Below, piece by piece: positions 1,585 to 23,915 of a stretch of DNA of 32,364 nt (its first letter is position 1; each line of letters opens with the position of its first letter). The DNA comes from an uncultured Acidobacteriota bacterium (lineage in GTDB: Bacteria; Acidobacteriota; Thermoanaerobaculia; Multivoradales; SZUA-115). The stretch covers positions 1-32,364 of the forward strand of contig CALMKX010000258.1 in assembly GCA_937867335.1 (NCBI GenBank), given 5' to 3'. The notes beneath the pieces are model-generated. The model was not told the DNA's origin. It was given only the letters and a program-made list of their open reading frames with translations, and made no database searches. The position numbers were made by a program, and so were the translations under genes.

Positions 1585-1652
1585 CCACCTCCCGGCCGCC
1601 CGAAGCAGGCGGCCATGGCAGGGATCTTGGCTCCCGGCGGGGCAAGGAGTCC

Positions 1653-1676
1653 GCAGCCGGCTCGAAAGCCGGCGGC
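1653..1676 (-). other. UUCG-tetraloop hairpin between kdpE and the kdpF/kdpA genes
   Basis: Positions 1656-1662 (GCCGGCT) and 1667-1673 (AGCCGGC) form a perfect 7-bp stem, with two more pairs beyond one mismatch. Read on the minus strand, the loop is TTCG, the very stable UUCG tetraloop. It sits about 32 nt after the kdpE stop and about 70 nt before the small ORF that precedes kdpF. No T-tract follows, so it is a poor intrinsic terminator. An mRNA-stability or processing element that separates regulator from pump expression is possible (inference). Confidence 0.5.
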
Positions 1677-1707
1677 AAGAAGGGGCAAAGACTTTCGAAA
1701 GGGGGGG

Positions 1708-8273: not shown

Positions 8274-8362
8274 GCGGACGGCCTCGGCCTCGCGAGGTCG
8301 GAGAGGGAGCCAGCAGGGAAGATAGTGCCGGGATTCCGGGCGCAAGCCTGTGAGGGTTGCGC

Positions 8363-8368
8363 TAAGAT
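8363..8368 (+). promoter_or_regulatory. Candidate -10 element in the leader of the TonB-receptor gene
   Basis: TAAGAT lies about 120 nt upstream of the receptor ATG, in a 216-bp intergenic stretch with no gene. No convincing -35 hexamer is found 16-18 nt upstream. If it is real, the receptor mRNA has a long 5' leader. The leader contains CTGGC/GCCAG complementary segments near 8389 and 8421 but no recognisable riboswitch. Confidence 0.25.
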
Positions 8369-8489
8369 GTTGGTGCGATTTCGTCACAACTGGCGGGCCT
8401 CGGCTGCGTGTGGTGATCATGCCAGAGCGCCCAGCGAGCCGGTCACGTCGTGGAACAGAGCTTCGATGGCGAGGAAAGGAGCAGAAGGA

Positions 8490-11411
8490 ATGAAACGTTG
8501 GCTCGGAAGCGTGCTGGGTGTAGCCCTGTTGGCAGGCCTCTTGGCCCTGCCGGCCGGGGCCCAGCTGCAGTACGGCAACCTCTATGGCACCGTCACGGAC
8601 GCGGACGGCCAGGCGTTGCCAGGTGTGACCGTGACCGCCACCGGAGCCGCTGGCTCGCTGGTGCAGGTGACGGACGAAAAGGGGCAGTTCCGCTTCCTCA
8701 ACCTCTCGCCCGGCACCTACCAGGTGCGGGCTGAGCTCTCGGGCTTCTCCACGGTCGACATGTCGGACGTCGCGGTCACCCTGGGCGGCCGGGTGAATCT
8801 AGAGGTGAAGCTCACCCCGCAGCTCTCCGAGACGCTGACCGTGACCGGGGAGGCCCCGCTGCTCGACGAGCACCGCCAGAACCGGGGCTCGGTGGTCACT
8901 CCCGAGGAGCTCAACAAGCTGCCCACGGCGCGAGATCCGTGGTCCTTGCTGTCGCAGGCCCCGGGCGTGCAGGTGGACCGTATCAACGTCGGCGGCAACG
9001 AGAGCGGCCAGCAGTCGAACTTCCTGGGCGCAGGCTCGGGCGGTCGCGAGAACACCTTCGCCGTGGACGGCGTGATCCTGACCGACATGAACGCGGTGGG
9101 CGGCTCGTTCGTCTACTACGACTTCGGCGCCTTCGAGGAGGTGCAGTTCACGGTTTCGTCCACGGACGTCACCGTGGCCACCGCCGGTGTCACCTTGAAC
9201 CAGGTGACCAAGCGCGGCACCAACCAGATCCGCGGCAACGCTCGCTATCTGCGCACCGACGGCAGCCTGCAGTCCTCGCCCTCGCTGGCCAACGGCAACG
9301 AGATCGACAGTGTCTCCGAGTACGGACTCGACATCGGCGGTCCGCTCTACAAGGACCACCTCTGGCTGTGGGGCTCGTGGGGCGAGAGCGACATCCGCAA
9401 CCTGGTGCCCTCGGCCGGCGGCGGCCAGCAGCTGGACCGCACCAAGCTCAAGGACTACAACTTCAAGCTCAACTTCGCCGGCTCGCAGAACCTCTCCGGC
9501 GTGCTCCACTTCTGGACCAACAACAAGCTGAAGTTCGGCCGCGGCGCCGGCCCCACCCGTGCCCCCGAGGCCACCCTCGACCAGACCACGCCGACCGACA
9601 CCTACAAGGCCGAGGTCTCCTGGCTGCCGAGCTCGGATTGGGTGGTCAACGTGCTCGCCTCGCGCAGCGACGGCAAGTTCACCTTGACCCCCAAGGGCGG
9701 TCTCAACGCCGATGTCTACGACGATCCGGACGGCGTGCGGCACGGCAGTACCTTCGATTTCGACCAGCACGCGGTGATCGACCAGGGCCGTATTGATACC
9801 CACTACTTCCTCACCGCTGGCTCGAGCACCCACGAGCTCAAGTTCGGCGGCAGCTACCGGACCCAGGACAACGAGTCCGGCACGATCTGGCCGAAAGGCC
9901 GCCGCACCGTGGCGATCAGCGCTCAGGAGGCGGGAGCCACGCAGCTGGTGATCTTCCCCCGCGACCGCACCGTGGCGGCGAGCAGCGAGTACACCTCGCT
10001 GTGGGCTCAGGACTCGATCTCCCTCGACCGCTGGACGATCTCGGCCGGCTTGCGCTGGGACAAGCAGTCTGGCAAGAACAAGGCCACTACCAACGCCGGC
10101 AACGCTCAGGCCACGGACCCGGCCAATGGCGTCAACTACCTGCCGCCCTTGAGCTTCAGCGGCAACGACGCCGGTGGCTTCGAGTGGAGCACCATCGTGC
10201 CCCGCCTGGGCGTCACCTACGCGGCCGGTGAGAAGCGCAACACGCTGATCCGCGGCACTTTCTCGCAGTACGCCGAACAGCTGGGCCAAAACCCGCAGAT
10301 CTTCCGCGTGAACCCCACCGGCGGCTACAGCTACGCCTACTTCTACTTCACCGACGCCAACGGCAACTTGCTGCTCGACGACGCCGAGCGCAGCTCGCTG
10401 TCGTTCTACTACCCGTACGGCTTCGACCCGGCGAACCCCGGGGCGCTCACCACCCCGAACGTCAATGACAAGGACTTGAAGCCGGCGACCAGCGACGAGC
10501 TGACCTTCAGCCTGGAGCAGGGCATCGGCGCCAACTTCATGGTCGGCGGCACCCTCACCCTGCGCCAGACCCGCGACATCGCCGAGCAGCGGCCCTTCAT
10601 CGTCGACGGCACCGGGACCACCCGGCTCGCCACGCGGGACGACTACGTGCTGCGCACCAACGATGCCGGCCAGCCGGATCCCCTGGTGGCCAGGCTGCCC
10701 AACGGCACCCAGGTGGCGATTCCGATCTACGTGCTGCGCGATGATCTCTCGCCCACCGGCGGCTCGCTCTTGACCAACGGCGACCGCAAGACGAAGTACA
10801 CCGGCCTCTCCGTGTACTTCCAGCGCCGCCTGGCCAACAACTGGTCGGCCCGAGGGCACTTCACCTACTCGGACTGGAAGTGGGATATCGGGCCCGAGTT
10901 CCGCCGCTACGACGACCCAACAGATGTGGTCAACGACGGCCTCTTCTTCTCGGATTCGGACGACGTCTACGTGGAGCGCTCGGGCGGCAACAAGACCAGC
11001 GTGTTCACCGGTAGCAAGTGGAACTTCAACCTAAACGGCCTCTACCAGGTGGCGCCGTCGCGGCCCTGGGGCTTCGATGTCGGCCTGTCCCTGACCGGCC
11101 GACAAGGCTATCCGCGCCCGCCGCTGCGCAGCCGGGTGAGCGGCGGCGCCCTCGGTGGGCGCACCGTTCAGCTGTCGCGCAACCTGGACGATTTCCGCAA
11201 CCCCAACGTGATCACGCTCGACGCCCACCTGGGCAAGGACTTCACCTTCGGCGCCACCAAGTTGCAGCTGTCGATCGACGGTTTCAACTTGACCAACAAC
11301 GATCCGGTTCTGCAGCGTGAAGTGGATGCCCGATTGGGCCGCTACAACCAGATCGACGAGCGGCTCTCGCCGCGGGTGTTCCGAGTGGGCCTGATCGTGC
11401 GCTACAACTAG
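8490..11411 (+). CDS. TonB-dependent receptor with carboxypeptidase-regulatory-like domain (Oar-like)
   Basis: This 973-residue outer-membrane transporter has a signal peptide (GSVLGVALLAGLLALPAGAQ, about 1-24). A carboxypeptidase-regulatory Ig-like domain follows (about 28-108: GTVTDADGQALPGVTV, then GQFRFLNLSPGTYQVRAEL). The plug domain (about 125-245) has ETLTVTGEAPLLDE, ENTFAVDGVILTDMN and LNQVTKRGTNQIRG. A long beta-barrel rich in aromatic and Asn residues then runs to the end. The Ig-plus-plug layout is that of the Oar-like group, which is heavily expanded in Acidobacteriota. Substrates of this group are often glycans, peptides or proteins and cannot be named here. The ATG at 8490 has an AAGGAG site 8 nt upstream. 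No TonB/ExbBD or SusD partner is adjacent, and a strong terminator follows. Confidence 0.93.
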   Translation: MKRWLGSVLGVALLAGLLALPAGAQLQYGNLYGTVTDADGQALPGVTVTATGAAGSLVQVTDEKGQFRFLNLSPGTYQVRAELSGFSTVDMSDVAVTLGGRVNLEVKLTPQLSETLTVTGEAPLLDEHRQNRGSVVTPEELNKLPTARDPWSLLSQAPGVQVDRINVGGNESGQQSNFLGAGSGGRENTFAVDGVILTDMNAVGGSFVYYDFGAFEEVQFTVSSTDVTVATAGVTLNQVTKRGTNQIRGNARYLRTDGSLQSSPSLANGNEIDSVSEYGLDIGGPLYKDHLWLWGSWGESDIRNLVPSAGGGQQLDRTKLKDYNFKLNFAGSQNLSGVLHFWTNNKLKFGRGAGPTRAPEATLDQTTPTDTYKAEVSWLPSSDWVVNVLASRSDGKFTLTPKGGLNADVYDDPDGVRHGSTFDFDQHAVIDQGRIDTHYFLTAGSSTHELKFGGSYRTQDNESGTIWPKGRRTVAISAQEAGATQLVIFPRDRTVAASSEYTSLWAQDSISLDRWTISAGLRWDKQSGKNKATTNAGNAQATDPANGVNYLPPLSFSGNDAGGFEWSTIVPRLGVTYAAGEKRNTLIRGTFSQYAEQLGQNPQIFRVNPTGGYSYAYFYFTDANGNLLLDDAERSSLSFYYPYGFDPANPGALTTPNVNDKDLKPATSDELTFSLEQGIGANFMVGGTLTLRQTRDIAEQRPFIVDGTGTTRLATRDDYVLRTNDAGQPDPLVARLPNGTQVAIPIYVLRDDLSPTGGSLLTNGDRKTKYTGLSVYFQRRLANNWSARGHFTYSDWKWDIGPEFRRYDDPTDVVNDGLFFSDSDDVYVERSGGNKTSVFTGSKWNFNLNGLYQVAPSRPWGFDVGLSLTGRQGYPRPPLRSRVSGGALGGRTVQLSRNLDDFRNPNVITLDAHLGKDFTFGATKLQLSIDGFNLTNNDPVLQREVDARLGRYNQIDERLSPRVFRVGLIVRYN

Positions 11412-11487: not shown

Positions 11488-11817
11488 TCAGGGCGCGAAG
11501 AGCTCGCGGAGCACGCCGAGGACTGCCGCTGCCTCCTCGGAGTCGAGGGAACCCAGGCGCCGAAGGAGACGAGCCTTGTCCACGGTGCGAATCTGGTCGA
11601 GGATGATCTGCCCCTGCTTGCCGTCGAAAAGACAGGGTACGCGACTGGGATAGGGTCGGCTCGCGGTGGTCATCGGAGCGATGATCACCGTGCGCAGAGG
11701 GCGGTTCATCTCGTCCGGAGAGATCACCAGGCACGGCCTGGACTTCTGGATCTCGCTGCCGATCGTCGGATCGAGGCCGACCAGGAACACGTCGAAGCGC
11801 CTTACTTCCACTCCCAC
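11488..11817 (-). CDS. mazF: MazF/PemK-family endoribonuclease toxin
   Basis: This is a 109-residue MazF-type mRNA interferase. Family motifs present are the opening RFDVFLVGLDPTIGSEIQKSRP with the conserved Arg of the active loop, CLVISPDEMN, the strand VIIAPMTT preceding the conserved Ser/Thr, and the end QIILDQIRTVDKARLL. Such toxins cleave single-stranded RNA at short sequence motifs and stop growth when released from the antitoxin. The ATG at 11817 lies inside the end of the antitoxin gene (16-nt overlap), the normal arrangement for co-translation. Length and motifs look intact, so the toxin is probably functional. Confidence 0.94.
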   Translation of the reverse strand: MGVEVRRFDVFLVGLDPTIGSEIQKSRPCLVISPDEMNRPLRTVIIAPMTTASRPYPSRVPCLFDGKQGQIILDQIRTVDKARLLRRLGSLDSEEAAAVLGVLRELFAP

Positions 11818-12059
11818 TCCTCGTCATCGAAAGAGTTGGAAACCTGGGCCTCTCCCTCCAGGAGGCGGTCGTCCCCCTTTCGTGCCATCTCGCGAAACGA
11901 AGCCTCCCAGCCGGCCCGTGGCAAGCGGACGGGCTCGATCACCAAGGAGTGGTTACGAACCGAGATCTCGACCGCGCCGCGGAGGCCGGTCTGCTCGAGA
12001 AGGGTCTTGGGGATGCGGACTCCCTGCGAGTTGCCGATACGGACGATGTGGGTTCTCAT
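11802..12059 (-). CDS. mazE: MazE-type antitoxin (AbrB/SpoVT fold)
   Basis: This 85-residue antitoxin has an N-terminal swapped-hairpin AbrB DNA-binding domain (RTHIVRIGNSQGVRIPKTLL, then ISVRNHSLVIEP). Its acidic, disordered tail (EAQVSNSFDDEEWEWK) is the type that wraps around MazF. The ATG at 12059 is preferred over a start 36 nt further upstream, because the MazE domain begins there and a GGGAG site lies 8-12 nt before it. The gene overlaps mazF by 16 nt. A clear promoter and a GTGATCAC palindrome lie just upstream, consistent with autoregulation. Confidence 0.93.
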   Translation of the reverse strand: MRTHIVRIGNSQGVRIPKTLLEQTGLRGAVEISVRNHSLVIEPVRLPRAGWEASFREMARKGDDRLLEGEAQVSNSFDDEEWEWK

Positions 12060-12145: not shown

Positions 12146-14248
12146 ATGGCGAGAGCTCTTCTGCGCTGGCCCGCCCTGCTGCTGGCTTCGGTGTTCGGCT
12201 TGGTGGGTTGCTCGAGGGCCGGTCTGGCCGAGGGCCCGCCGGCGGCGCCTCCGGATCTGATCCTGATCACCATCGACACCCTCCGGGCGGACGCTCCGAG
12301 CTTCGCGGGAGTCCACCCCGGTACCACCCCCAACCTGGACAGGCTGGCCGCCAAAGGGCGGGTGTTCGACAACGCCCACGCCCACAACGTCATCACCCTG
12401 CCCTCCCACACCAACATCCTCACCGGCCTCTACCCCTACCAGCACGGCGTGCGGGAGAACAGCGGCTTCAAGCTGCGGCGTGACGTTCCCACTCTGGCCA
12501 CTTACCTGAAGGCCGCCGGCTACAAGACCGCTGCCTTCGTGGGCGCCTACCCCCTGGACTCGGAGTTCGGCCTGGACCGCGGCTTCGACGTCTACGACGA
12601 TCGCTTCCCGAAAGGCTCGAGACCCACCGAGTTCGTGCTGCCCGAGCGCCGGGGGGACGAGGTGGTGCGCCTGGCCCTCGCCTGGTGGCAGCAGCAGAAG
12701 GGCAGCCGCCGCTTCCTCTGGGTGCATCTCTTCGATCCCCATGCGCCCTACGATCCGCCGGAGCCTTTCGCCAGCAAGTTCGCCAAGGAGCCCTACCTGG
12801 GCGATGTAGCGGCCGCGGATTCCTTCCTGGCGCCGCTGCTTTCGCCGCACCTCGAGGGCAAGGAGCCGCCGGCGCTGATCGTGGTCACCGGCGACCACGG
12901 CGAAGGGTTGGGCGAGCACGGCGAGCTCACCCACGGCCTCTTCGCCTACGAGCCCACCCTCCACGTGCCACTCCTGCTCTGGGGAGTGGGGGTGCCCCCG
13001 GGGCGGGACCCCCGGCCGGCCCGACATGTGGACATTCTGCCCACTCTGCTCGGCGCGGCCGGCGTCAAGCCGCCCACGGCCGGGGCTTCGCGGCTGCCCG
13101 GGGCCTCCCTGCTGGGACCGGCGCCCAGCGGCCTTGCGGCGGATTCCTACTTCGAATCCCTCTCGGCCAGCTTGAATCGCGGCTGGGCGCCGCTCCGAGG
13201 GGTGATCCGGGACGGCAAGAAGGCGATCTTGCTTCCGTTGCCGGAGCTTTACGATCTGCCGCGCGACCCTCGCGAGGCCAGCAACCTTTTCGACGCCGAG
13301 CGGCGCCTGGCAGCGACGCTGCTGCGCTCGTTGCCCACCGAGTCCGAGTGGCCGCCGCCGCGGGGGGCGATCTCGGAGGAGGAAGCGAGGCGGCTCGCGG
13401 CGCTGGGCTACATCACCAGCACGGCGAGCACCAAGCCGAGCTTCGACGTGAAAGACGATCCCAAGCGGCTGGTCGACCTCGACCGCAAGATCCACGACCT
13501 CGTGGACCTCTACTCCCGGGGCAGGCTCGAGGAGGCCGTGAAGCTCGGGGAAGAGGTGGTCAAGGAGCGCCCGGAGATGCCGCTCGGCTATTCCCTCCTG
13601 GCCCAGGCCCTGCTCGAGAAGGGCGATACCGCGGCGGCTGTGAAGTTGATGCAGGAGGCCCGCAAGGGCGGCCGGGCCACCGAGAGCCTGCTGGTGCAGC
13701 TGGGCCTCTCGCTGGCCGAGCTGGGCCGGGCCCAGGAGGCGATCGAAGTGCTCGAGGGGCCGGCCGGCCACGGCAACCTCGAGGCCGGCAACGCGCTCGC
13801 CCAAACGCTTTCTGAAGCGGGCCAGCAGGAGGCGGCCCGGGAAACCCTCGCGAAGCTCCTGGCGGCCGATCCCGAGCAGCCGAAGACCTACGAGAACCTC
13901 GGCCTGGTGGCGCTGCGCCAAGGCCGCTGGCTGGAGGCGAGAGACCAATCGAAGAAGGCCCTTGAGCTCAACCCGGGCCTGCCCCTGTCCTGGAACAACC
14001 TCGGCGTGGCGCTCTACCGCCTGGGGCAGCCCGAGCCGGCCCTCGATGCCTGGGCGAAAGCCGTGGAGCTCGACCCCAAACTCTACGACGCTCTCTTCAA
14101 CCTTGGCTTCAAGGCAGCCGAGCACGGGCGCACCGCCCAGGCTCGAAAGGCTCTGGAGCAGTTCATCGCCAGCGCCCCGCGGGATCGCTACGGCCCGGAC
14201 ATCCGCGAGGCTCAGGGCCTGCTCGGCCAGCTGAGGGCGAAGGGGTGA
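12146..14248 (+). CDS. Sulfatase-fold lipoprotein with C-terminal TPRs, Thr at the catalytic position (first of pair)
   Basis: This 700-residue protein starts with a lipoprotein signal (lipobox LVGC, Cys22). An alkaline-phosphatase/sulfatase-superfamily domain spans about 36-420. Visible metal-site elements are ILITIDTLRAD (Asp44) and VVTGDHGEGLGEHG near 250-262. Around the nucleophile the sequence is VITLPSHTNILTGLYP. Aligned with the sulfatase motif C-x-P-S-R, the Cys is Thr84 and the Arg is His88, so formylglycine cannot form. Thr is the nucleophile in LtaS- and EptA-type transferases and in phosphatases of this superfamily. A TPR region follows (about 455-695, for example SWNNLGVALYRLGQPEPALDAW). 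Its stop overlaps the next gene by four bases. The substrate is unknown; phosphodiesterase or transferase activity is more likely than sulfatase activity (inference). Confidence 0.85.
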   Translation: MARALLRWPALLLASVFGLVGCSRAGLAEGPPAAPPDLILITIDTLRADAPSFAGVHPGTTPNLDRLAAKGRVFDNAHAHNVITLPSHTNILTGLYPYQHGVRENSGFKLRRDVPTLATYLKAAGYKTAAFVGAYPLDSEFGLDRGFDVYDDRFPKGSRPTEFVLPERRGDEVVRLALAWWQQQKGSRRFLWVHLFDPHAPYDPPEPFASKFAKEPYLGDVAAADSFLAPLLSPHLEGKEPPALIVVTGDHGEGLGEHGELTHGLFAYEPTLHVPLLLWGVGVPPGRDPRPARHVDILPTLLGAAGVKPPTAGASRLPGASLLGPAPSGLAADSYFESLSASLNRGWAPLRGVIRDGKKAILLPLPELYDLPRDPREASNLFDAERRLAATLLRSLPTESEWPPPRGAISEEEARRLAALGYITSTASTKPSFDVKDDPKRLVDLDRKIHDLVDLYSRGRLEEAVKLGEEVVKERPEMPLGYSLLAQALLEKGDTAAAVKLMQEARKGGRATESLLVQLGLSLAELGRAQEAIEVLEGPAGHGNLEAGNALAQTLSEAGQQEAARETLAKLLAADPEQPKTYENLGLVALRQGRWLEARDQSKKALELNPGLPLSWNNLGVALYRLGQPEPALDAWAKAVELDPKLYDALFNLGFKAAEHGRTAQARKALEQFIASAPRDRYGPDIREAQGLLGQLRAKG

Positions 14249-16425
14249 GGCGCTTGCTGCCGCTCGCCGGCTTGCTGCTCGCAGCCTGCGCGGGCAGTGG
14301 CAAGCCGGCGGAGGATCTCCGCCTGCCGGCCGGCACGCCGATCATCTTCATCTCGATCGACACCCTGCGCTCGGACCACCTTCCCGCCTACGGCTACACT
14401 CGCGTGGAAACGCCGGCCATCTCGAAGCTGGCCGAGCAGGGCCTGGTGTTCGAGCGGGCCTACTCGCACGTGCCGCTCACTCTGCCTTCCCATACTTCGC
14501 TGCTCACCGGCCTCTTGCCGGCGGCGAGCGGCGTGCGGGACAACGTGGGCTACCTGCTCGACACCCGGGGCGTGGACGCCGGCCGGGTGCCGTACCTCCC
14601 GCACCTGCTCAAGAAGCTCGGCTACCAGACCGGCGCCGGAGTCTCGGCTTTCGTGCTGCGCGGCAAGACCGGCCTCGCCCACGACTTCGACTTCTTCGAG
14701 GACTCGATCGAGTTCGTGAGCGGCACCGGCCTCGGTGGCCTCCAGCGCCCGGGGCGGCAGACGCTCTCGCTCGTCGAGCCCTGGCTCGAAAAGGCCGCCG
14801 GCAAACCGTTCTTCTTGCTCTTCCATCTCTACGAGCCGCACAGCCCCTACCAGCCGCCCTCGCCGTTCAAGGAGCGCTATCCCCTGGCCTACGACGGCGA
14901 GATCGCCTCGGCGGACCAGGTGGTGGGCCAGCTGCTGGCCGACCTCGAGCGGTTGGGGCTCTACGACCGGGCCTTGATCGCCCTCTTCTCGGACCACGGC
15001 GAAGGCCTCGGCGACCACGGCGAGGACGAGCACGGCGTGCTGCTCTACCGGGAAGCGCTGCAGGTGCCGCTCATCCTGCGGCTGCCGCGCGCCCAGGGGG
15101 CCGGCACGAGGGTGAAGGCCCCGGCCCAGCTCACCGACCTGGCGCCCACGGTGCTGCGCCTCCTGGGCCAGCCGCAACCGCCGGCGATGAAGGGCACGTC
15201 GCTCCTGGCGCTCGCAGCCGGGTCGGCGCCCGAGCGGCAGATCTTCTCCGAGACCTTCTACCCGCGCCTCCACTTCGGCTGGTCGGACCTCGCCTCGGCG
15301 ATCGACTCCCACCACCACTACCTGGAGGGGCCCACGCCGGAGCTTTTCGACCTCGAGCGGGATTCCGCCGAGCAGAAGAACGTGCTGCTCGAGGAGAAGC
15401 GGGCCTTCGCCGATCTGCGCCGGGCCCTGGCGAGCTACGACCGCAGCTTCAAGCCGCCGGGAGCGGTGGACCCGGAAGCCCGCGCGGCGCTCGCTGCCCT
15501 CGGCTACGTGGGTAGCGTGGCCGGAGAGGCCAAGGAGGGCCCGCTTCCGGACCCCCGCGGCCAGCTGCCGTTCTTGCGCCAGCTGCGGGGCGCTTTCGCC
15601 TTCCACGCCAAGGGCGAGTACGCCGAGGCGGCCAAGGCCTTCCGGGCGGTGCTGGCGGTGAACCCCACCATGGTGGACGCCCTCGAGTACCTGGGCCGGG
15701 CCCTGGAGCAGCTGGGGCAGCGCGAGGAGGCGCTGGCCACCTACAAGAAGGCGCTGGCGCTCTCCCAGGGGGCGCCGCACATCGCGCTCGCGGCGGCCTC
15801 GCTCTACCTCGAGATGGGAGATCTGAAGGCCGCGGAGGAACATGCCCGGCTGGCCCTGGTGGCCCATCCTTCGTTCGCCCACGGTGTGCTGTCGCAGATC
15901 GCCCTCGCCAGGAAGGACCTCGACGGCGCCGAGCGCGAAGCCCGGGAAGCGATGGCGGCGGGGGAGAACCGCATCGGGCCGGTGGTCACCCTGGCGGCGG
16001 TGCTCGAGGCCCGCGGGCGCTACGAAGAAGTGCTCGAGCTCACCGCCCAGGCCGAAGCGACGTACCGCAGTCGCGAAGCCCAGGACAAGGCGCTGCTGCG
16101 GGGCCTCTACCTGACCCGTGGCCAGGCCCTGGCGGACCTCGGCCGGCGCGAGGAGGCCGAGGTGGCCCTGCGCAAGGAAATCGAGCTCTTCCCCCAGGAC
16201 CCCCGGGCCTACTCCAGCCTGGCCATCCTCTGCGCCCTGACCGGCCGCCCCGGCGAAGTGCCGGACTTGCTCCGCCGGATGGTGGAGACCCGCCCCTCGG
16301 CCGGCAACTACGCCGAGGCGGTGAAAACGCTGCGCATCCTCCGTGATCCGGCCAGCGCCCAGGCCCTCCTCGCCCACGCCCTCAAGCTCTACCCCGGTAG
16401 CCCCGACCTCGCAGCGTTGCGCTGA
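14245..16425 (+). CDS. Sulfatase-fold lipoprotein with C-terminal TPRs, Thr at the catalytic position (second of pair)
   Basis: This 726-residue paralogue of the preceding product has the same architecture. The lipobox is LAAC (Cys15) and the sulfatase-fold domain spans about 30-420. Metal motifs are IFISIDTLRSDH (Asp39) and ALFSDHGEGLGDHG near 247-258. The nucleophile region is PLTLPSHTSLLTGLLP with Thr79 in the formylglycine position. A TPR-rich half (about 445-720) contains segments such as ALEYLGRALEQLGQREEAL. The start is a GTG at 14245 overlapping the upstream stop (GTGA), so the two are co-translated. The domain pairing and lipid anchors suggest both proteins work on the same envelope substrate or complex. 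The catalytic reaction remains unknown. Confidence 0.85.
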   Translation: MRRLLPLAGLLLAACAGSGKPAEDLRLPAGTPIIFISIDTLRSDHLPAYGYTRVETPAISKLAEQGLVFERAYSHVPLTLPSHTSLLTGLLPAASGVRDNVGYLLDTRGVDAGRVPYLPHLLKKLGYQTGAGVSAFVLRGKTGLAHDFDFFEDSIEFVSGTGLGGLQRPGRQTLSLVEPWLEKAAGKPFFLLFHLYEPHSPYQPPSPFKERYPLAYDGEIASADQVVGQLLADLERLGLYDRALIALFSDHGEGLGDHGEDEHGVLLYREALQVPLILRLPRAQGAGTRVKAPAQLTDLAPTVLRLLGQPQPPAMKGTSLLALAAGSAPERQIFSETFYPRLHFGWSDLASAIDSHHHYLEGPTPELFDLERDSAEQKNVLLEEKRAFADLRRALASYDRSFKPPGAVDPEARAALAALGYVGSVAGEAKEGPLPDPRGQLPFLRQLRGAFAFHAKGEYAEAAKAFRAVLAVNPTMVDALEYLGRALEQLGQREEALATYKKALALSQGAPHIALAAASLYLEMGDLKAAEEHARLALVAHPSFAHGVLSQIALARKDLDGAEREAREAMAAGENRIGPVVTLAAVLEARGRYEEVLELTAQAEATYRSREAQDKALLRGLYLTRGQALADLGRREEAEVALRKEIELFPQDPRAYSSLAILCALTGRPGEVPDLLRRMVETRPSAGNYAEAVKTLRILRDPASAQALLAHALKLYPGSPDLAALR

Positions 16426-16438
16426 GGGCAGCCCTCAG
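16422..16438. terminator. Palindrome containing both convergent stop codons
   Basis: CTGAGGG (16422-16428) and CCCTCAG (16432-16438) form a perfect 7-bp stem with a 3-nt loop. The TGA of the second sulfatase-fold gene (16423-16425) and the TGA of the convergent PIN gene (16435-16437 on the minus strand) both lie within the stem. There is no T-tract on either side, so termination efficiency is doubtful. A bidirectional end signal is the simplest reading. Confidence 0.45.
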
Positions 16439-16860
16439 GGGTTGAGGAACGGGGTTTCGACCCACAAGCTCCCGAACCGGCGACCGGCCTGAAAGTCCTC
16501 GGACCCCATCCGCTGGCAGTTGGCCGAGAGCGCAGCTTCAACGATCAGGGCGTCCCAGAACGAGAGCGAATCGGCGACGGTTCGCCGCATGGCCGAGATC
16601 AAGATCGCGGTCTCGAGCACCACAACGGGGAGGCGGGTCAGATCCTCGACAACGGCCAGCGCTTCTGCGGGCTCGAGCGGGGGTACCAGCTTCCTGGTGG
16701 CGACGCTGAGGAATTCCTGGAGAACCTGAGTGGAAAGCACGAGCTCGTGCTGACTTCCATGACTCGACAACAGCTCCTGGGATCGGAGCTGTTTTGCTGG
16801 AGAGGCCTTGTCGAAGAGGTAGACCAGGACGTTGGTGTCAACGAAGACCCGCTCGGTCAT
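16435..16860 (-). CDS. vapC: PIN-domain toxin, VapC family (first module)
   Basis: This 141-residue PIN-domain ribonuclease toxin keeps the acidic metal-binding residues: the N-terminal Asp in RVFVDTNVLVYLFD, the Glu in TQVLQEFLSVA, the Asp in LSFWDALIVEAAL, and acidic residues in the C-terminal GSEDF. VapC toxins cut tRNA or rRNA loops. The ATG at 16860 lies 23 nt inside the end of the upstream antitoxin gene, the usual toxin-antitoxin overlap. It converges on the second sulfatase-fold gene with the two stop codons embedded in one palindrome. It appears intact. Confidence 0.92.
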   Translation of the reverse strand: MTERVFVDTNVLVYLFDKASPAKQLRSQELLSSHGSQHELVLSTQVLQEFLSVATRKLVPPLEPAEALAVVEDLTRLPVVVLETAILISAMRRTVADSLSFWDALIVEAALSANCQRMGSEDFQAGRRFGSLWVETPFLNP

Positions 16861-17129: not shown

Positions 17130-18446
17130 TCAGGGCCAGATCTCGTCGATCAGCCCGGCCTTTTGCTTGAGGCGGAACCAGGCGTTGCGGGCTCGCCAGA
17201 AGCGGCTGGCTTCGATGGCGGAGAGGCGATGCTCGAGCTTGCCGATGGTGGTCTTGAGCTCGGCCTCGGTTTTCGCCAGTCGGGCGCGGAGTGCCTCCAC
17301 CTCGGCTTCGGCACCGACGCGCAGCGTCGACTCCAGGTTGTGACCCCAGAGGAAGCGCTCGCGGCCGCTGCGAGTCTGGACCTTGAGGTAGAGCAGGTGC
17401 GAGTGGAGAGGCGGCGGCAGGTCGTAGGGCACCACCACCTCCCAGCCGAAGGCCTCGGTGCCGGTCAAATTCAACACCTTGGCCACGTCCGGTCGGGGTC
17501 CGAAGTCCTCGCTGGTGCCCACCACCTGGCCGTCGATCATCACCGTGGCCCGCGCCGGGGGATCGTTCCAGCCCGGGTCGTAGCACCAGCCGCTCACCAC
17601 CAGCCGACGGTCCTCGCGGAACTGCACCCGATCTGGCATGCCCTCGATCGTGCCGTGGAAGGCGGGAGCATCGAGGCCGGGCACGTTGGCGTCCACCACC
17701 AGCCAGAGATCCTGGAAGTTGAGCAGGCCACGCGGGATCCGATGGGCCACGCTCCCGGGCGCCACTTCCTCGATCAGCCGGCGCACGAACTCTTCTTGCA
17801 CCCAGGTGGTGCCGTAGTCCTCGTGGTCGAGCACCTGGCTCTCGCTGGTGGACAGGAAGTAGAGATCTCCGGCCTTCGCCCGATGCTCCTCCACCAAGAG
17901 GCTCATGTCGTGGGTGGTGAAAGCGAGCAGGCCGCCCGGCCTCCGCAGGGCAGCGAGGCGGGCGAGCCAGGCCCGGAACGTGGGCTCGGGCAGATGGGTG
18001 AAGAGGGAGGTGACGAACACGGCGTCGAAGCCGCCGGGGTGCTCGAAGTCCTCCGCGCGGGTGGTCGAGGCGAGGGCGGTGACCCCGAACTGTTCGCGCT
18101 GGAAGGCCACGGCTTCGGGCACGATTTCGGCGATGGTCAGCCGCTCGGGCGGCAGCCGATGAACCAGGAAGCGGGTCGCCCGGCCGAAGCCGCTGGCGAA
18201 GTCGAGCATGCGCTCCACCTTCTCCCAGCCACCGAAGCGCCAGGCGATCGCCTGGTCGTAGGTGTCGACGATGCCCAGGGCTGTGGCGAAGTAGTGCAGC
18301 GCGCCGCGCAACGGGTCGCGGCCGTGGATCTCGGCGAGGTAGCCGAGCATCTCGTCGGCCGGGTGGATGGTGCGGTCGATCGGCCCCGGGCCCCGCCATT
18401 GGCTGGCCAGGAGCTGGTCGATCAGCGCTTCAACTTCCTCCGTCAT
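17130..18446 (-). CDS. Class I SAM-dependent methyltransferase with glycan-enzyme-type C-terminal tail, coupled to pilR
   Basis: This 438-residue protein has an N-terminal class I methyltransferase domain. Motif I is MLDFASGFGRATRFLV (80-95), an acidic post-I residue follows in LTIAEIVPEAV, and FDAVFVTSLFTHLPEP is a motif II-type strand ahead of a GGLLAFTTHD strand. A beta-rich middle domain (about 270-360) follows, then a predicted coiled coil (about 370-415) and an ASRFWRARNAWFRLK tail. From memory, that tail is common at the C-terminus of glycosyltransferases and methyltransferases of surface-polysaccharide clusters. The ATG at 18446 lies 17 nt inside the end of pilR, so synthesis is coupled to the pilus regulator. 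The acceptor is unknown; a pilin glycan or exopolysaccharide is possible (inference). Confidence 0.82.
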   Translation of the reverse strand: MTEEVEALIDQLLASQWRGPGPIDRTIHPADEMLGYLAEIHGRDPLRGALHYFATALGIVDTYDQAIAWRFGGWEKVERMLDFASGFGRATRFLVHRLPPERLTIAEIVPEAVAFQREQFGVTALASTTRAEDFEHPGGFDAVFVTSLFTHLPEPTFRAWLARLAALRRPGGLLAFTTHDMSLLVEEHRAKAGDLYFLSTSESQVLDHEDYGTTWVQEEFVRRLIEEVAPGSVAHRIPRGLLNFQDLWLVVDANVPGLDAPAFHGTIEGMPDRVQFREDRRLVVSGWCYDPGWNDPPARATVMIDGQVVGTSEDFGPRPDVAKVLNLTGTEAFGWEVVVPYDLPPPLHSHLLYLKVQTRSGRERFLWGHNLESTLRVGAEAEVEALRARLAKTEAELKTTIGKLEHRLSAIEASRFWRARNAWFRLKQKAGLIDEIWP

Positions 18447-19845
18447 GGGTATCCTCTTCGCCGTCGGGGCCTCTCCCGGTCACCAGGCCGGCTTTCTTCG
18501 CGTAGTAGCGGAACGAGCGGAAGCTCATCTTGAGCAGCTCGGCCGCCTGGGTCTGCACGCCGCCGGCGCGCTCGAGGGCCTGCTCCATGAGCCGCGCCCG
18601 CAGGCCGTCGAGGAAGGCTTCGAGGTCGAGGCCTTCCTCGGGCAGCTCGAGGCTCTCCACCCGCTCTTTGCGCCGGGAGAGCAGATGTCCGGGCAGGTCC
18701 CGGGAAGTGATCGTGGAGCCTTCGGAAAGCGCGAGCATGCGCTCGATCACGTTCTCGAGCTCGCGCACGTTGCCGGGCCAGTCGTAGCTCTCGAGCACCT
18801 TCATGGCCTCGACCGAGATGCGCCGGGGCTCCAGCCCCAGGACCTGGCTGTACTTGCGCAGGAAGTGGTCCACCAGGTAGGAGATGTCCTCTCGCCGCTG
18901 GCGCAGCGGCGGCAGATGGATCGGGATGACGTTGATGCGGTAGTAGAGGTCCTCGCGGAACTCGCCGGAGGCGATGCGCTCCTCGAGGTTGCGGTTGGTG
19001 GCGGTGATGATCCGCACGTCCACCTCTTCCTCGCGGTTGCCGCCCACCTTGCGCACCTTGCGATCCTGCAGCGCCCGCAGCAGCTTCACCTGCATGGCCG
19101 GGCTCATCTCGCCGATTTCGTCGAGGAAGAGAGTGCCGCCATCGGCCTCCTGGAACAGGCCCTTCTTGTCGCGCACGGCGCCGGTGAAGGAGCCCCGCTC
19201 GTGGCCGAAGAGCTCGGATTCGAGCAGATTCTCGGGCAGGGCGCCGCAGTTCACCGACAGGAAGCGGCGAGTCGAACGCGGGCTCGCGAAGTGCACGGCG
19301 CGGGCGATCATCTCCTTGCCGGTACCGCTTTCGCCGTAGAGCAGCACGGTGGAGTTGGTCTTCGCCACCCGCTCCACGATGCCGAAGATCTCCTGCATCC
19401 GCGGGCTCTTGCCGATGACGTTGGCGAAGGTGTACTTGCCTTCGAGCTCGCGGCGCAGGTAGACGTTCTCGTCCAAGAGCTCGGTGCGCTCGAGCGCCTT
19501 CTCGATCACCACCTTGAGCTCGTCGTTGTCGAAGGGCTTCGAGATGTAATCGTAGGCGCCGAGCTTCATCGCCTCGATGGCCGCCTTGGTGGAGGTGTAG
19601 GCGGTCATCATCACCACCGAGGTGTGGGGAGTCTTCTCCTTGATCTCCTTCAGCAGGTCGAGCCCGTTGCCGTCGGGCATCATGATGTCGCAGAGCACCA
19701 GGTCCGGCAGGGTGGCGGCGAGCACCTTGTGGGCCTCGCTCACCGAGCCGGCGGTGTGGATCTGATAGCCCTCGGGCTCGAGCAGGATGGAGAGGAAATC
19801 GAGCAGGCTGCGCTCGTCGTCGACGATCAGAATGGAGCCCTTCAT
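18430..19845 (-). CDS. pilR: PilR-type sigma-54-dependent response regulator
   Basis: This 471-residue NtrC-family activator has a receiver domain (1-120) with phospho-acceptor D53 in LVLCDIMMPDGNG and Lys in YISKPFDND. The AAA+ domain (about 142-370) has Walker A GESGTGKE (171-178), the sigma-54-contact loop GSFTGA (218-223) in place of the commoner GAFTGA, and Walker B GGTLFLDEIGEM. The C-terminal Fis-like helix-turn-helix includes AAELLKMSFRSFRYYAKKAGL split over its two helices, the PilR signature. The ATG at 19845 overlaps the pilS stop (ATGA). It probably activates pilin genes located elsewhere, since no pilA is in this window. Confidence 0.93.
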   Translation of the reverse strand: MKGSILIVDDERSLLDFLSILLEPEGYQIHTAGSVSEAHKVLAATLPDLVLCDIMMPDGNGLDLLKEIKEKTPHTSVVMMTAYTSTKAAIEAMKLGAYDYISKPFDNDELKVVIEKALERTELLDENVYLRRELEGKYTFANVIGKSPRMQEIFGIVERVAKTNSTVLLYGESGTGKEMIARAVHFASPRSTRRFLSVNCGALPENLLESELFGHERGSFTGAVRDKKGLFQEADGGTLFLDEIGEMSPAMQVKLLRALQDRKVRKVGGNREEEVDVRIITATNRNLEERIASGEFREDLYYRINVIPIHLPPLRQRREDISYLVDHFLRKYSQVLGLEPRRISVEAMKVLESYDWPGNVRELENVIERMLALSEGSTITSRDLPGHLLSRRKERVESLELPEEGLDLEAFLDGLRARLMEQALERAGGVQTQAAELLKMSFRSFRYYAKKAGLVTGRGPDGEEDTHDGGS

Positions 19846-21494
19846 GCCCGTCCCAGCGGGGCGAGCTCGGCGGTATCCGGCGGTACCGGCAGCTCCACCT
19901 GGATCGAGGTGCCGCGGCCGGGAGCGCTGTCCACCGACAGACGGCCTCCGTGCTCTTGAACGATGCGATAGACGATCGCCATGCCGATCCCGGTTCCTGA
20001 GTCGAAAGAAGATTGGAAAGGCAGGAAGAGGCGGGAGCGCTCTTCCTCGGTCATGCCCCGGCCTTGGTCCCGGAACCGGATCGTATAGGAACTCTGGCCC
20101 AGCTCGCCTTCGATCGCCAGCAGGCCTCCCCCCGGCATGGCCTTGAGGGCGTTCCTGGCGACATTCCAGAAGATCTGGCTGATCTGGTCCGGATCTCCGA
20201 GGAGGATCGTCGAAGGCGGATGGAGCTTGAGCTCCACCCGGTGGCGGGAGGAGATCTCCGGGCTGTTCTGCAGCAACTGGACGTTCTCGGCCAGGAGGCC
20301 GGCGATGTCGAAGCGCACGGTGGCGCGGTCTTTGGGCCGCACGAAGCGGAGGAAGCCCTTGATGGTGCGGTCCAGGCGTTGGCTCTCCTTGAGCAGGATG
20401 TCGAGCAGGCGCTGCTCGCCGCTGCCGGCCGACGAGCTCGCCGCCAGCATCTGCACCGAGCCGGAGATCGCCGCCAGGGGGTTGCCGATTTCGTGGGCGA
20501 GGCCGGCGGCGAGCTCGCCCACCGCGGCCATGCGATCCTTGAGCCGCAGCTCCTCCTCGAGCAGCCGCCAGCGGGTGAGGTCCTGGAAGATCACGATGTA
20601 GCCGCGTTCCCGGCCCTCGCCATCCATCAGCCGGGAGACCGTGAAGCCGATATCGACGCGACCGCTCGCGCGATCCAGGTGCTTCTCGGAGCGATAGCGC
20701 CGATCTTTGTCCGAGGCGTGGACCAGAGATTCCCACTCGGCCTGGGTGAACAGGCCGCTGGCGGTGATCGGCTCGCCCAAGAGGGTGCCCTCGCCGACGC
20801 CGAGGATCATCTCGCCGGCACGGTTGAGGGTGGTCACGGTGCCCGAAAGATCGGTGGTGGCGAGGCCGCTGGGCACGGATTCGATGATGTCCCGGTGGGC
20901 CACCTTGAGGGCGGCGAGGTCCTCCCGCTGCACCTCGAGGGCGTCCTCCACGAGCTTGACCCGCCGGGTCAGCAGCGAGGTCAAGAAGGCCACGCCGTAG
21001 AAGCCCACCAGGTGCACGAAGAGGGTGTAGGCCAGCCTCAGGGTGACGCCGTACTCGAGCGGCGGCACCTGACTCCGGATCCAGCCTTCGGAGAGGCCGA
21101 TCTGCAGCACCGAGTAGAGCAGGAAGGAGGCGCTCGCCACCACGATCGCCGCCCGCTGGCCGAGCAGCAGCGAGGCCACGATGATCACCACCACGTAGAA
21201 CGGCGAGAACGGGCTATCGCCTCCGAAGCGGTAGATCAGGCCGGTGGTCAAGAGCAGGTCGCCGACGAATTGGATCCAGGCCTGGAGCTCGGGCCGGCCG
21301 GTGAGCAGGCGCAGGTTCGCCAGATAGAACAGGGTCAGCACGCAGGTGATGCCGAAGAGCGCGCCGTAGAACTCGGGCACGTCCCCCGCGCCGGCGGCCG
21401 AGAGCCGGGAGAAGACGTAGGGCAGCGCCATGCTGGTCACCACCACCAGCCGCAGGGCGATGTACCAGGACAGTTGCCGTTCGAGGTGAGTCAT
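19842..21494 (-). CDS. pilS: PilS-type membrane sensor histidine kinase
   Basis: This 550-residue sensor begins with about six membrane helices (residues 10-185). A coiled linker and a PAS domain follow (about 205-310: IIESVPSGLATTDLSGTV). The HisKA domain has the phospho-acceptor His in LAAGLAHEIGNPLAAISG. The HATPase domain has ISQIFWNVARNALKAM (N-box), RFRDQGRGMTEEE (G1), FQSSFDSGTGIGMAIVYRI (F/G2) and GRGTSIQVELP. The layout matches PilS, which in Pseudomonas senses pilin levels in the membrane. I prefer the ATG at 21494 to a TTG one codon upstream; neither has a good Shine-Dalgarno site. It sits between pilC and pilR on the same strand. Confidence 0.92.
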   Translation of the reverse strand: MTHLERQLSWYIALRLVVVTSMALPYVFSRLSAAGAGDVPEFYGALFGITCVLTLFYLANLRLLTGRPELQAWIQFVGDLLLTTGLIYRFGGDSPFSPFYVVVIIVASLLLGQRAAIVVASASFLLYSVLQIGLSEGWIRSQVPPLEYGVTLRLAYTLFVHLVGFYGVAFLTSLLTRRVKLVEDALEVQREDLAALKVAHRDIIESVPSGLATTDLSGTVTTLNRAGEMILGVGEGTLLGEPITASGLFTQAEWESLVHASDKDRRYRSEKHLDRASGRVDIGFTVSRLMDGEGRERGYIVIFQDLTRWRLLEEELRLKDRMAAVGELAAGLAHEIGNPLAAISGSVQMLAASSSAGSGEQRLLDILLKESQRLDRTIKGFLRFVRPKDRATVRFDIAGLLAENVQLLQNSPEISSRHRVELKLHPPSTILLGDPDQISQIFWNVARNALKAMPGGGLLAIEGELGQSSYTIRFRDQGRGMTEEERSRLFLPFQSSFDSGTGIGMAIVYRIVQEHGGRLSVDSAPGRGTSIQVELPVPPDTAELAPLGRA

Positions 21495-21510
21495 CAAGGA
21501 TCGTCGAGCG

Positions 21511-21535
21511 AAAAAGCGCGGCGGCGAGAGGCCGC
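21511..21535 (-). terminator. Hairpin plus T-run in the pilC-pilS gap
   Basis: On the minus strand GCGGC-CTCTC-GCCGC is followed by CGCGC and then TTTTT (21515-21511). The core stem is only 5 bp, with partial pairing outside it, and the T-run is 5 nt from the stem. This weak intrinsic-terminator candidate could partly separate pilTC from pilSR transcription. Confidence 0.35.
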
Positions 21536-21544
21536 TCCGCGATC

Positions 21545-21579
21545 GCAGGCCCCCGTCCCGCGAACGGGAGAGGGCCTGC
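21545..21579 (-). other. Long imperfect hairpin with UUCG loop after pilC
   Basis: GCAGGCCC (21545-21552) pairs with GGGCCTGC (21572-21579). Inside it TCCCG (21556-21560) pairs with CGGGA (21565-21569) around CGAA, which reads TTCG on the minus strand. The structure lies 15-50 nt after the pilC stop. It is a second UUCG hairpin on a minus-strand intergenic transcript, like the one after kdpE. It may stabilise the 3' end of the pilTC message or be a dispersed repeat. Confidence 0.5.
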
Positions 21580-21593
21580 GCAGCGCGCCAATC

Positions 21594-22799
21594 CTAGCCG
21601 ACGTACTGCAGGAACTTGTAGAGCGGCAAGTACATCGAGGTCACGATCATGCCGATGATGCCGCCGAGCACGGTGATCAGCAGCGGCTCGATCAGCTTCA
21701 TCAGGCCGGCCACCGCGGTGTCCACCTCTTCTTCGTAGAAGTCGGCGATCTTCGACAGCATCTGATCGAGGGCGCCGGTCTGCTCGCCGACGTTGATCAT
21801 CTGCACGACCATGGCCGGGAACACCTTGGTGGCAGCGAGCGGCTCGCTGATCGATTTGCCTTCTTCGACGCTCTTGCGCACCGCCATCACGGCATCTTCG
21901 ATCACCGCGTTGCCGGACGTCTTGGCGGTGATCTCGAGGCCGTCCAGAATCGGCACGCCGGAGGCGGTGAGGGTGGATAGCGTGCGGCAGAAGCGCGCCA
22001 CCGCCACCTTCCTCAGCAGACCGCCGATGATCGGGATCTTGAGCAGGAAGGCGTCGAAGGCCTTGCGGCCGGCTTCGGTCTTCTTCCAGTTGAGGAAGAG
22101 CACGGTAAGGCCGGCGAGGGCGGCGAACATGAACAGCGAGTAATTGCCCACGAAGCGGCTGGCGCCGACCACCATCTTGGTGAGGAAGGGCATCTCGCCG
22201 CCGGCGGCGGTGAACAACTGGGCGAAGACCGGGATCACCCACTTCAAGATGACGAAAACCACGCCGATGGCGATCAGGATCACCGTCACCGGGTAGATCA
22301 ACGCGCTCTTCACCTGCTGGCGCAGTTTCACCACCTTTTCGATGTAGGTGGCCAGTCGGCGCAGGATCACGTCGAGAATACCGCCGGCCTCACCGGCGGC
22401 GATCATGTTGGTGTAGAGGTTGTCGAAGGCCTTGGGGTGCTTGCGCATGGCGTCGGCGAGCGAGGCGCCGGACTCGACGTCGGAGCGCACCTGGCGGATC
22501 ATGCCGGCGAAGACCTTGTTCTCCTCCTGGTCGCCCAGGATCTCGAGGCACTGCACCAGGGGCAGGCCGGCGTCGAGCATCACGGAGAACTGTCGAGTGA
22601 AGATGGCCACCCGCTTGGGAGGAACGCCGGGGGTGATCTTGGGAATGAGCGGGATCTCGCGGCCCCGCTCGCGGATTCTCATCACCTGGATCTGCTTGCG
22701 CCGGAGGGCAGAAAGCGCCGCGTCGCGACTCTCCGCCAGCTCAACGCCTTCGATCACCGATCCAGCGCGGTTGCGCCCGCTCCAAACGTAGCTCGGCAT
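21594..22799 (-). CDS. pilC: PilC, type IV pilus inner-membrane platform protein
   Basis: This 401-residue polytopic protein organises the inner-membrane pilus assembly machine. It has two GspF/PilC (T2SF) domains. The first, about 70-195, includes VAIFTRQFSVMLDAGLPL and FDNLYTNMIAAGEAGGILD. The second, about 270-395, includes VARFCRTLSTLTASGVPIL and ALDQMLSKIADFYEEEV. Hydrophobic segments lie at about 170-195 and 218-240 and in the C-terminal LLITVLGGIIGMIVTSMYLP. The ending YKFLQYVG is complete. The ATG at 22799 is 3 nt after the pilT stop, so the genes are almost certainly co-transcribed. Confidence 0.95.
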   Translation of the reverse strand: MPSYVWSGRNRAGSVIEGVELAESRDAALSALRRKQIQVMRIRERGREIPLIPKITPGVPPKRVAIFTRQFSVMLDAGLPLVQCLEILGDQEENKVFAGMIRQVRSDVESGASLADAMRKHPKAFDNLYTNMIAAGEAGGILDVILRRLATYIEKVVKLRQQVKSALIYPVTVILIAIGVVFVILKWVIPVFAQLFTAAGGEMPFLTKMVVGASRFVGNYSLFMFAALAGLTVLFLNWKKTEAGRKAFDAFLLKIPIIGGLLRKVAVARFCRTLSTLTASGVPILDGLEITAKTSGNAVIEDAVMAVRKSVEEGKSISEPLAATKVFPAMVVQMINVGEQTGALDQMLSKIADFYEEEVDTAVAGLMKLIEPLLITVLGGIIGMIVTSMYLPLYKFLQYVG

Positions 22800-22802
22800 G
22801 GG

Positions 22803-23915
22803 TTAGCTCCTTACCTCCGCCCTCATCATGGACGGCGCAGCCGCCTCCGGGCCGCGCGAGATCATCTCTTGAAGCTCGTCCGGAAAAGACGACCGTGCTA
22901 TGGCCGTCTGCAGGGAAATCAACCGCTTGAAGTACAGCGAGGCGAGCGATTGATTGAACGTAATCATTCCGTACTTGGCCTGACCGGTCTGCATCATGCC
23001 GTAGATCTGGTGGATCTTGTCTTCGCGGATCAGATTGCGGATCGCCGAGTTGGGCACCAGCACCTCGAGGGACAGAGCTCGGCCTCTTCCGGCCGCCCGT
23101 GGCAGCAGGGATTGGCAGATGATGCCTTCGAGCACGAAGGAGAGCTGCACACGGATCTGCCCCTGCTGGTGGGCGGGGAAAATGTCGACGATGCGGTTGA
23201 TGGTCTGGGCCGCGGAGTTGGTGTGCAGGGTGGCGAAGGTCAAGTGGCCGGTCTCGGCGATGCGCAGCGCCGCTTCCACCGTCTCGAAGTCACGCATCTC
23301 GCCGATCAGCACCACATCCGGGTCTTCGCGCAGGGCCGAGCGCAGGGCGTTCGCGAAGCTCAGGGTGTCGGCGCCCAGCTCGCGCTGGTTGACCACGCAT
23401 TTCTTGTGCGGGTGAAGGTACTCGATCGGGTCTTCGATGGTGACGATGTGCTCGTGCCGCTCGCGGTTCACCTTGTCGAGCATGGCGGCGAGGGTGGTGG
23501 ACTTGCCGGAGCCGGTGGGGCCGGTGACCAGCACCAGGCCGCGGGGCTTCTCGCACATCTTCTCGATCACCGGCGGCAGCCCGAGCTCGCGGAAGCCGCG
23601 GATCTCGAAGGGGATGCGGCGGAACACCGCGGCGATGGCGCCGCGCTGGTGGAAGACGTTCGAGCGGAAGCGGGCGAGGCCCTTGATGCCGAAGGAGAAG
23701 TCGATCTCGAGGTCTTCTTCGAGGCGGTGCTTCTGGTGGTCGGTCAAGATCGAGTAAGCGATCTGTTTGGTCTCGGTGGGGTTCATGGCCGGGTAGTTGA
23801 GCGGCCGGAGCGTGCCGTCTACCCGGATCTGGGGCGGGGATGCCGCCGTGATGTGAAGGTCCGAAGCTCCCTGGTCGACGGTCTCCTTCAGCAGCTGACT
23901 GAGCGTGAGCGCCAT
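22803..23915 (-). CDS. pilT: PilT, type IV pilus retraction ATPase
   Basis: This 370-residue hexameric secretion-type ATPase has an N-terminal PAS-like domain (1-110, with SDLHITAASPPQIRVDG). The RecA-like domain follows, with Walker A GPTGSGKST (132-140), Asp box TIEDPIEYLH (159-168), Walker B VVLIGEMRD (201-209) and His box TGHLTFATLHTNSA (222-235). The sequence GMITFNQSLASLY near 315 is characteristic of PilT/PilU rather than the extension ATPase PilB, which also has zinc-binding cysteines not found here. It is the first gene of the pilT-pilC unit, with an AT-rich promoter region upstream shared with the divergent ABC exporter gene. Its C-terminus carries a short Ala/Met extension. Confidence 0.95.
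   Translation of the reverse strand: MALTLSQLLKETVDQGASDLHITAASPPQIRVDGTLRPLNYPAMNPTETKQIAYSILTDHQKHRLEEDLEIDFSFGIKGLARFRSNVFHQRGAIAAVFRRIPFEIRGFRELGLPPVIEKMCEKPRGLVLVTGPTGSGKSTTLAAMLDKVNRERHEHIVTIEDPIEYLHPHKKCVVNQRELGADTLSFANALRSALREDPDVVLIGEMRDFETVEAALRIAETGHLTFATLHTNSAAQTINRIVDIFPAHQQGQIRVQLSFVLEGIICQSLLPRAAGRGRALSLEVLVPNSAIRNLIREDKIHQIYGMMQTGQAKYGMITFNQSLASLYFKRLISLQTAIARSSFPDELQEMISRGPEAAAPSMMRAEVRS

Follow-up and report, generated by a model that had tools for sequence, protein, structure and literature searches.

A tandem pair of sulfatase-fold TPR lipoproteins with threonine at the formylglycine position, and the linkage of their family to Oar-like receptors in Acidobacteriota

What chemistry should be expected of two adjacent lipoproteins that match a sulfatase profile and carry threonine at the formylglycine position? 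The window, i.e., the whole 32,364-nucleotide stretch of DNA analyzed here (an uncultured Acidobacteriota bacterium; contig CALMKX010000258.1), contains gene A (12146..14248, + strand), encoding a 700-aa lipoprotein with a sulfatase-fold, Thr-type domain (residues ~34-430) and a TPR half (439-699), and gene B (14245..16425, +), encoding a 726-aa lipoprotein of the same build (domain ~29-430, TPR half 437-725). The GTG start of B lies within the stop of A (GTGA overlap, 14245..14248, +), and this overlap makes translational coupling of the two genes likely; a promoter and terminator scan of the A-B region gave nothing of use. Profile searches recovered PF00884 in A (3.8e-39) and B (1.9e-46), and many TPR models matched the second half of both proteins, where the AlphaFold2 models (pLDDT 91.3 for A and 91.6 for B) also place a TPR superhelix (13460..14242, +, in A; 15553..16419, +, in B). 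Only a signal sequence stands ahead of the domain in both proteins (domain from about residue 30-34 on), and an N-terminal multi-pass membrane domain is absent. The lipobox cysteines read from the sequence are Cys22 of A (LVGC; 12209..12211, +) and Cys15 of B (LAAC; 14287..14289, +), and the term lipoprotein is safe for these two, with a lipobox found by a crude regular expression in only 26 of 102 relatives. The original prediction had described just such an overlapping pair of two-part lipoproteins with threonines at residues 84 and 79; its coordinates, overlap and numbering are exact, its domain assignment agrees with the searches, and its lipoprotein call agrees with the lipoboxes read from the sequence.

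Are A and B sulfatases? Their TLPSH segment aligned without gaps to the S/C-x-P-S-R motif of solved formylglycine (FGly) sulfatases, e.g., the S-G-P-S-R of 5g2v, and its context reads TLPSHTxxLTG as compared with C/S-x-P-S-R-x3-LTG in those enzymes. The replacement of Cys by Thr (Thr84 of A, 12395..12397, +; Thr79 of B, 14479..14481, +) and of Arg by His (His88 of A, His83 of B) was therefore read correctly from the start. The CxPSR Arg, the GK Lys and a third, later Lys of FGly-sulfatases are all missing; the G-Y-x-T-x3-G-K signature is present without its GK (GYKTAAFVGAY in A, GYQTGAGVSAF in B), and the His263 region stands where a Lys is expected. Position 84 was Thr in 109 of the 113 full-length relatives, gathered by a collection scan whose patterns left out the TLPSH motif, and the other four were two Ser, one Cys (a true sulfatase) and one sequence that is cut off. 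The loss of the FGly-type Arg and Lys and the prevalence of Thr uphold the earlier exclusion of formylglycine chemistry for this pair. Such chemistry is probably present in the organism in other proteins, since the best match to the formylglycine-generating enzyme (FGE) in the genome adjoins a CxPSR sulfatase (contig C198). Polysaccharide uptake commonly involves sulfatases linked to receptors, and the best fold and sequence matches of A and B are S1 sulfatases, both of which would suit an unusual sulfatase that does not require formylglycine. We nevertheless consider this very improbable, as Thr is not known as a source of formylglycine (PMC5066984) and A and B have lost the basic residues by which FGly-sulfatases are recognized. 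The true sulfatases of the genome keep CxPSR. The authors of the sulfatase classification had already described Thr in place of Cys for many PF00884 'sulfatases' in 2016, with Thr in 30 of 59 seed sequences, which should not be called sulfatases without evidence (PMC5066984).

The rest of the site is retained, including the metal-binding Asp motifs to which the original prediction had pointed. Conservation and an EptA profile alignment identify Asp44 of A (IDTLRAD; 12275..12277, +) and its counterpart Asp39 of B (14359-14361, +) as the predicted first metal ligand, and they similarly mark His194 and His199 (HLFDPH; 12725..12742, +, in A; same residue numbers in B, 14824-14841, +), which align with EptA His380 and His385. 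Further metal and substrate ligands are predicted in Asp250-His251 ... His263 (DHGEGLGEHGELTH; 12893..12934, +, in A; same residue numbers in B, 14992-15033, +), with a Lys near the last position in FGly-sulfatases. Among the 113 relatives, D44 was kept in 112, H251 in 112, D250 in 111, H88 in 110 and H263 in 110, and at least 109 kept each of D44, R47, D49, T84, H88, H194, H199, Y217, D250, H251, G252, E253, E260 and H263. Thr84 and Thr79 form the first residue of a helix (84-93 and 79-88, respectively) after strand 2 in the AlphaFold2 models, and the nucleophile of the superfamily sits at the helix following strand 2, i.e., Ser in alkaline phosphatase, Thr in ENPPs and FGly in arylsulfatases (PMC11677397). 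Together with conservation and the sulfatase alignments, this modeled position supports the proposal that Thr is the likely nucleophile. Because the site of Thr, Asp, His and Glu is kept in at least 105 of 113 relatives, A/B-type proteins are probably active enzymes. The sulfatase fold could instead have been reused for binding, leaving catalytically dead scaffolds on a TPR arm; we found no activity of any family member in the literature, and TPR-only proteins also adjoin receptors, but the nearly full conservation of nucleophile and metal ligands across 113 proteins makes this improbable, and where Thr is replaced, which is rare, it is by Ser, likewise a nucleophile.

If A and B are enzymes, which members of the superfamily do they resemble? 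Among solved structures, the closest folds belong to S1 sulfatases and to phosphonate monoester hydrolases of the FGly type (Z 32-38); VIA-align superposed A on 6hr5 at Z 37.0 (rmsd 2.9, 335 aligned) and B at Z 38.4 (rmsd 2.7, 343 aligned). A and B share with these enzymes the fold (~335-380 residues), the order of strands and helices, the positions of D44, H199 and D250 and the C-terminal subdomain, whereas they differ from them in the Thr in place of Cys/Ser, His88 in place of Arg, the additional His194 and His263, the TPR half and the lack of an active-site Lys. EptA, LtaS and NPP were absent among the 50 structures listed by VIA-align and Foldseek, which is not evidence against kinship. 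Judged by these listings, A and B come closer in overall fold to sulfatases than to any of the three, which counts against the reading that we prefer below.

The residues of the site lead toward phosphotransferases. A profile of EptA/EptC, built with E. coli K-12 sequences, matched the family profile in hhalign with a probability of 97.5 (E 7e-12) and paired seven residues with E. coli EptA (D44:E244, R47:R247, H194:H380, H199:H385, D250:D455, H251:H456 and E253:E458), and H263 falls on EptA H468 under a gap-free reading of DHGExLGExGxxxHG. The same alignment sets T84 five residues from EptA T280, which again counts against the preferred reading, and support for the equivalence of the two threonines comes from the modeled helix-start position and the sulfatase alignments. 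A threonine of this kind serves MCR-1, whose Thr285 was observed phosphorylated and whose function is abolished by T285A (PMC5031297). EptA/MCR and LtaS resemble A and B in a Thr that is the probable nucleophile of A and B (judged by position), an SDHGESLGExGxxxHG-type motif, an HxxxxH motif and metal ligands, and differ from them in having Glu rather than Asp as first metal ligand, an N-terminal membrane domain, no TPR and a more distant fold. The kinship with LtaS and EptA that had been suggested is upheld for the EptA residue set and is qualified by the nearest solved folds listed and by the aligned position of the nucleophile. Similarly, NPP/type I phosphodiesterases (PF01663) have a T-[FYL]-P-[NS]-H-x3-L-T-G nucleophile motif, which A and B carry as T-x-P-S-H-x3-L-T-G and a paralogue of the same genome as TYPSHTTLITG. 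PF01663 matched residues 38-106 of A (1.3e-8) and 34-101 of B (9.5e-16), a partial match that stops short of the full domain, its best stretch reaching only ~66 of the 342 positions in the profile. A and B may thus be described as a sulfatase scaffold carrying a phosphotransferase-like site, judging from alignments and models; a phosphotransferase or phosphodiesterase pair, as first proposed, appears likelier than a sulfatase pair, although that proposal had left out the resemblance to NPPs.

Envelope transferases of the EptA/LtaS kind offer a possible, though tentative, account of the pair, in which A and B would attach a phosphate-linked group to a glycan, lipid or lipoprotein of the cell itself, and the linkage to receptors described below would be incidental or reflect modification of the receptor. 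The EptA-like residue set including H194, H199 and H263 is consistent with this, as are the lipid anchor and the occurrence of Thr-type paralogues without His88 among genes that look glycosyltransferase-like from their sequences (L028, L029 and L031). The strong linkage to receptors argues against it, and so does the lack of a transmembrane domain in A and B, given that the membrane domain is needed by EptA and LtaS, whose ligands have been listed, for transfer (PMC7576196); the same absence also weighs against a transferase role within the reading that we prefer.

A and B are not simple copies of one another. In a tree of 113 domains, made by a quick method with SH-aLRT support only, A fell within a clade of 13 members (support 98), and B within one of 18 (support 100). 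Some twenty columns are fixed differently between the A-clade and the B-clade, including D138/R, T262/E262 (next to H263), E269/R and K359/H. Members of both clades occur together at five further loci (L046, L049, L056, L085 and L112), as they do in the window, so that the conserved TLPSH gene pairs that one would look for across genomes do recur. The recurrence of the tandem and its two clades suggest division of labor rather than recent duplication. The separate clades, the fixed differences beside the predicted metal site and the recurrent tandem are new here.

The pair has many paralogues and belongs to a very large family. Of the 20 PF00884 matches in the genome (5.56 Mb in 391 contigs), eight are TPR paralogues like A and B, the two themselves included; seven of the eight have an intact TLPSH/TLPAH and one is cut off N-terminally. 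The other PF00884 proteins include four of Thr type without His, several true sulfatases with CxPSR, an LtaS-like membrane protein and an NPP-like phosphodiesterase. At E 1e-3, a family profile found relatives in 147 of the 149 genomes sampled from the phylum; most of these matches lay well beyond the threshold, and the weak ones may be other PF00884 branches. Named relatives come chiefly from Acidobacteriota, plus Planctomycetota and a few others, and the nearest of them make the Thermoanaerobaculia the probable class of the organism. Our literature search found no paper describing the TPR/sulfatase-fold family, which agrees with the original remark that a pair of this kind is uncharacterised, while Thr replacement in PF00884 in general had already been described (PMC5066984).

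Gene calls at the other loci came from a home-made codon-based predictor, which was good on the window and rough on starts, and several of these loci show features of their own. The proteins of L028, L029 and L031 (TIPSV, TGVSF and TSPAL) appear from their sequences to form a second uncharacterised Thr-type branch. In L023 (G000:C382), a TLPSH paralogue at 8346-10229 has its nucleophile-bearing N-terminal part out of frame, reflecting a frameshift, an assembly error or decay; intact relatives are found in L099, L107 and L121, with a related receptor gene adjoining in L099 and L121. The contig of L110 (CALQBK020000021.1), labeled as a Bifidobacterium breve MAG, carries two acidobacterial-type genes of the A/B family and is probably misbinned.

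Where do these proteins act? Upstream of A lies an Oar-like TonB-dependent receptor gene (8511..11411, +; CarboxypepD_reg 1e-17, Plug 3.3e-5). Two genes on the opposite strand stand between them, encoding a MazF/PemK toxin (11488-11817, -; PemK_toxin 2.5e-28) and MazE (11802-12059, -; MazE 4.3e-07), and this MazEF pair (11488..12059) is probably unrelated to A and B. With MazEF in between, the receptor and A/B are probably not one transcript in the window, which counts against the preferred reading. In a related genome, the comparable locus G029 C84 seemingly leaves no room for MazEF. Elsewhere in the window are a PIN-type (VapC-like) toxin gene (16435-16860, -, PIN 2e-12) and a second, putative one (30123-30551, +, with a small antitoxin-like gene upstream at 29875-30123), a type IV pilus block (18433-23915, -) with PilS-like kinase, sigma-54 regulator, PilC-like and PilT-like genes, and a potassium ATPase region (3-3887, -) with KdpA, a response regulator and a KdpD-like kinase of ~496 aa, from which the usual N-terminal KdpD/USP part is seemingly missing.

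The linkage extends well beyond the window. The genome has nine Oar-like receptors, and three further TLPSH loci (C283, C229 and C382) adjoin one. To avoid selection on the sulfatase, the same 15 genomes of the class were searched separately with a sulfatase profile and a receptor profile, and 27 of 65 sulfatase loci lay within 3 kb of a receptor compared with 1.8 expected from the densities, a roughly fifteen-fold excess that is not likely to be due to the receptor profile, which was partly built from family-adjacent receptors and may favor them, or to the assumption of even spread in the expectation. Linked loci occurred in 11 of the 15 genomes, and 31 of 37 neighbor pairs were on the same strand; the remaining 38 of 65 loci were away from a receptor, which counts against the preferred reading. 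In 79 named, separately gathered loci, the receptor share fell as the distance in genes grew: 24/154 (one gene), 9/118 (two), 3/99 (three) and 0/212 (four or more). A receptor gene followed by two sulfatase-fold genes, as in the window, recurs for example in G029 C84, and G067 C9 has the same order with three of them. We found no earlier report of this linkage, and it was missed by the original prediction, as were the two-clade nature of the pair and the size of the paralogous family.

Neighboring genes gave no substrate clue, as a Pfam tally of 98 adjacent proteins contained chiefly TPR, CarboxypepD_reg and GWxTD and no glycoside hydrolases among the top 25 families listed, and other neighbors were dropped as pointers to the substrate. 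A MurQ-like SIS-domain gene (L023:3371-4294) stands between a TPR-sulfatase gene and an Oar-like receptor, a single occurrence that possibly hints at amino-sugar phosphate substrates. Directly upstream of another Oar-like receptor, a TPR protein without a sulfatase domain (L128:1404-2033) opens with LQALGYLG, a linker that sulfatase-TPR proteins typically carry, and is perhaps a remnant of such a protein.

We therefore favor, with a probability of about 0.55, the reading that A and B are Thr-nucleophile metallo-phosphoesterases or phosphotransferases on a sulfatase scaffold, acting at the receptor, and not sulfatases, as argued from sequence comparisons and models. The domain build, the conserved residues, the missing FGly-type residues, the gene linkage and the recurrent tandem are observed; catalysis, metal, intermediate, partner, location and substrate are what we infer here. 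A and B would be exported, lipid-anchored metallo-enzymes of the alkaline-phosphatase superfamily. Mechanistically, Thr84/Thr79, activated by metal on D44, D250 and H251, would attack the phosphorus center of a phosphodiester or phosphomonoester and yield a phospho-Thr intermediate. H194, H199 and H263 would assist, in the manner of EptA, in holding the substrate or a second metal; the group would then be handed to water or another acceptor. As the two proteins come from distinct subfamilies and differ in residues next to the metal site, they probably serve two related substrates or two successive steps. The TPR superhelices may bind a partner, which gene linkage suggests to be the Oar-like receptor, and the pair would most likely process a phosphorylated ligand, glycan or lipid headgroup there.

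The arrangement recalls SusCD/RagAB, in which a TonB-dependent receptor with a CarboxypepD_reg-type domain is likewise linked to a TPR-fold lipoprotein, with the differences that the TPR protein of A/B carries an enzyme domain and that only some A/B-family loci are receptor-linked. Profile searches found no SusD/RagB (PF07980) in the genome or in A or B. The SusD-type protein RagB is also built of TPRs and forms a lid over its TonB-dependent barrel (PMC11817032). By analogy with that lid, we hypothesize that in SusD-less Acidobacteriota the TPR lipoproteins with a Thr-type phosphoesterase head might be outer-surface cutting 'lids' of Oar-like receptors, fusing capture with dephosphorylation or phosphodiester cleavage, with A and B as two heads on one receptor; this more specific idea is rather unlikely.

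Many such genes per genome, in a phylum that is among the commonest in soil and sediment, match a 'sulfatase' profile, so that degradation of sulfated glycans is easily claimed in error. If they are read as phospho-enzymes of the Thr type with a link to TonB-dependent receptors, a testable proposal follows, namely that Acidobacteriota use these proteins to deal with phosphorylated polymers or to alter the cell surface, and the A/B family is a possible partner family for a large set of orphan Oar-like receptors.
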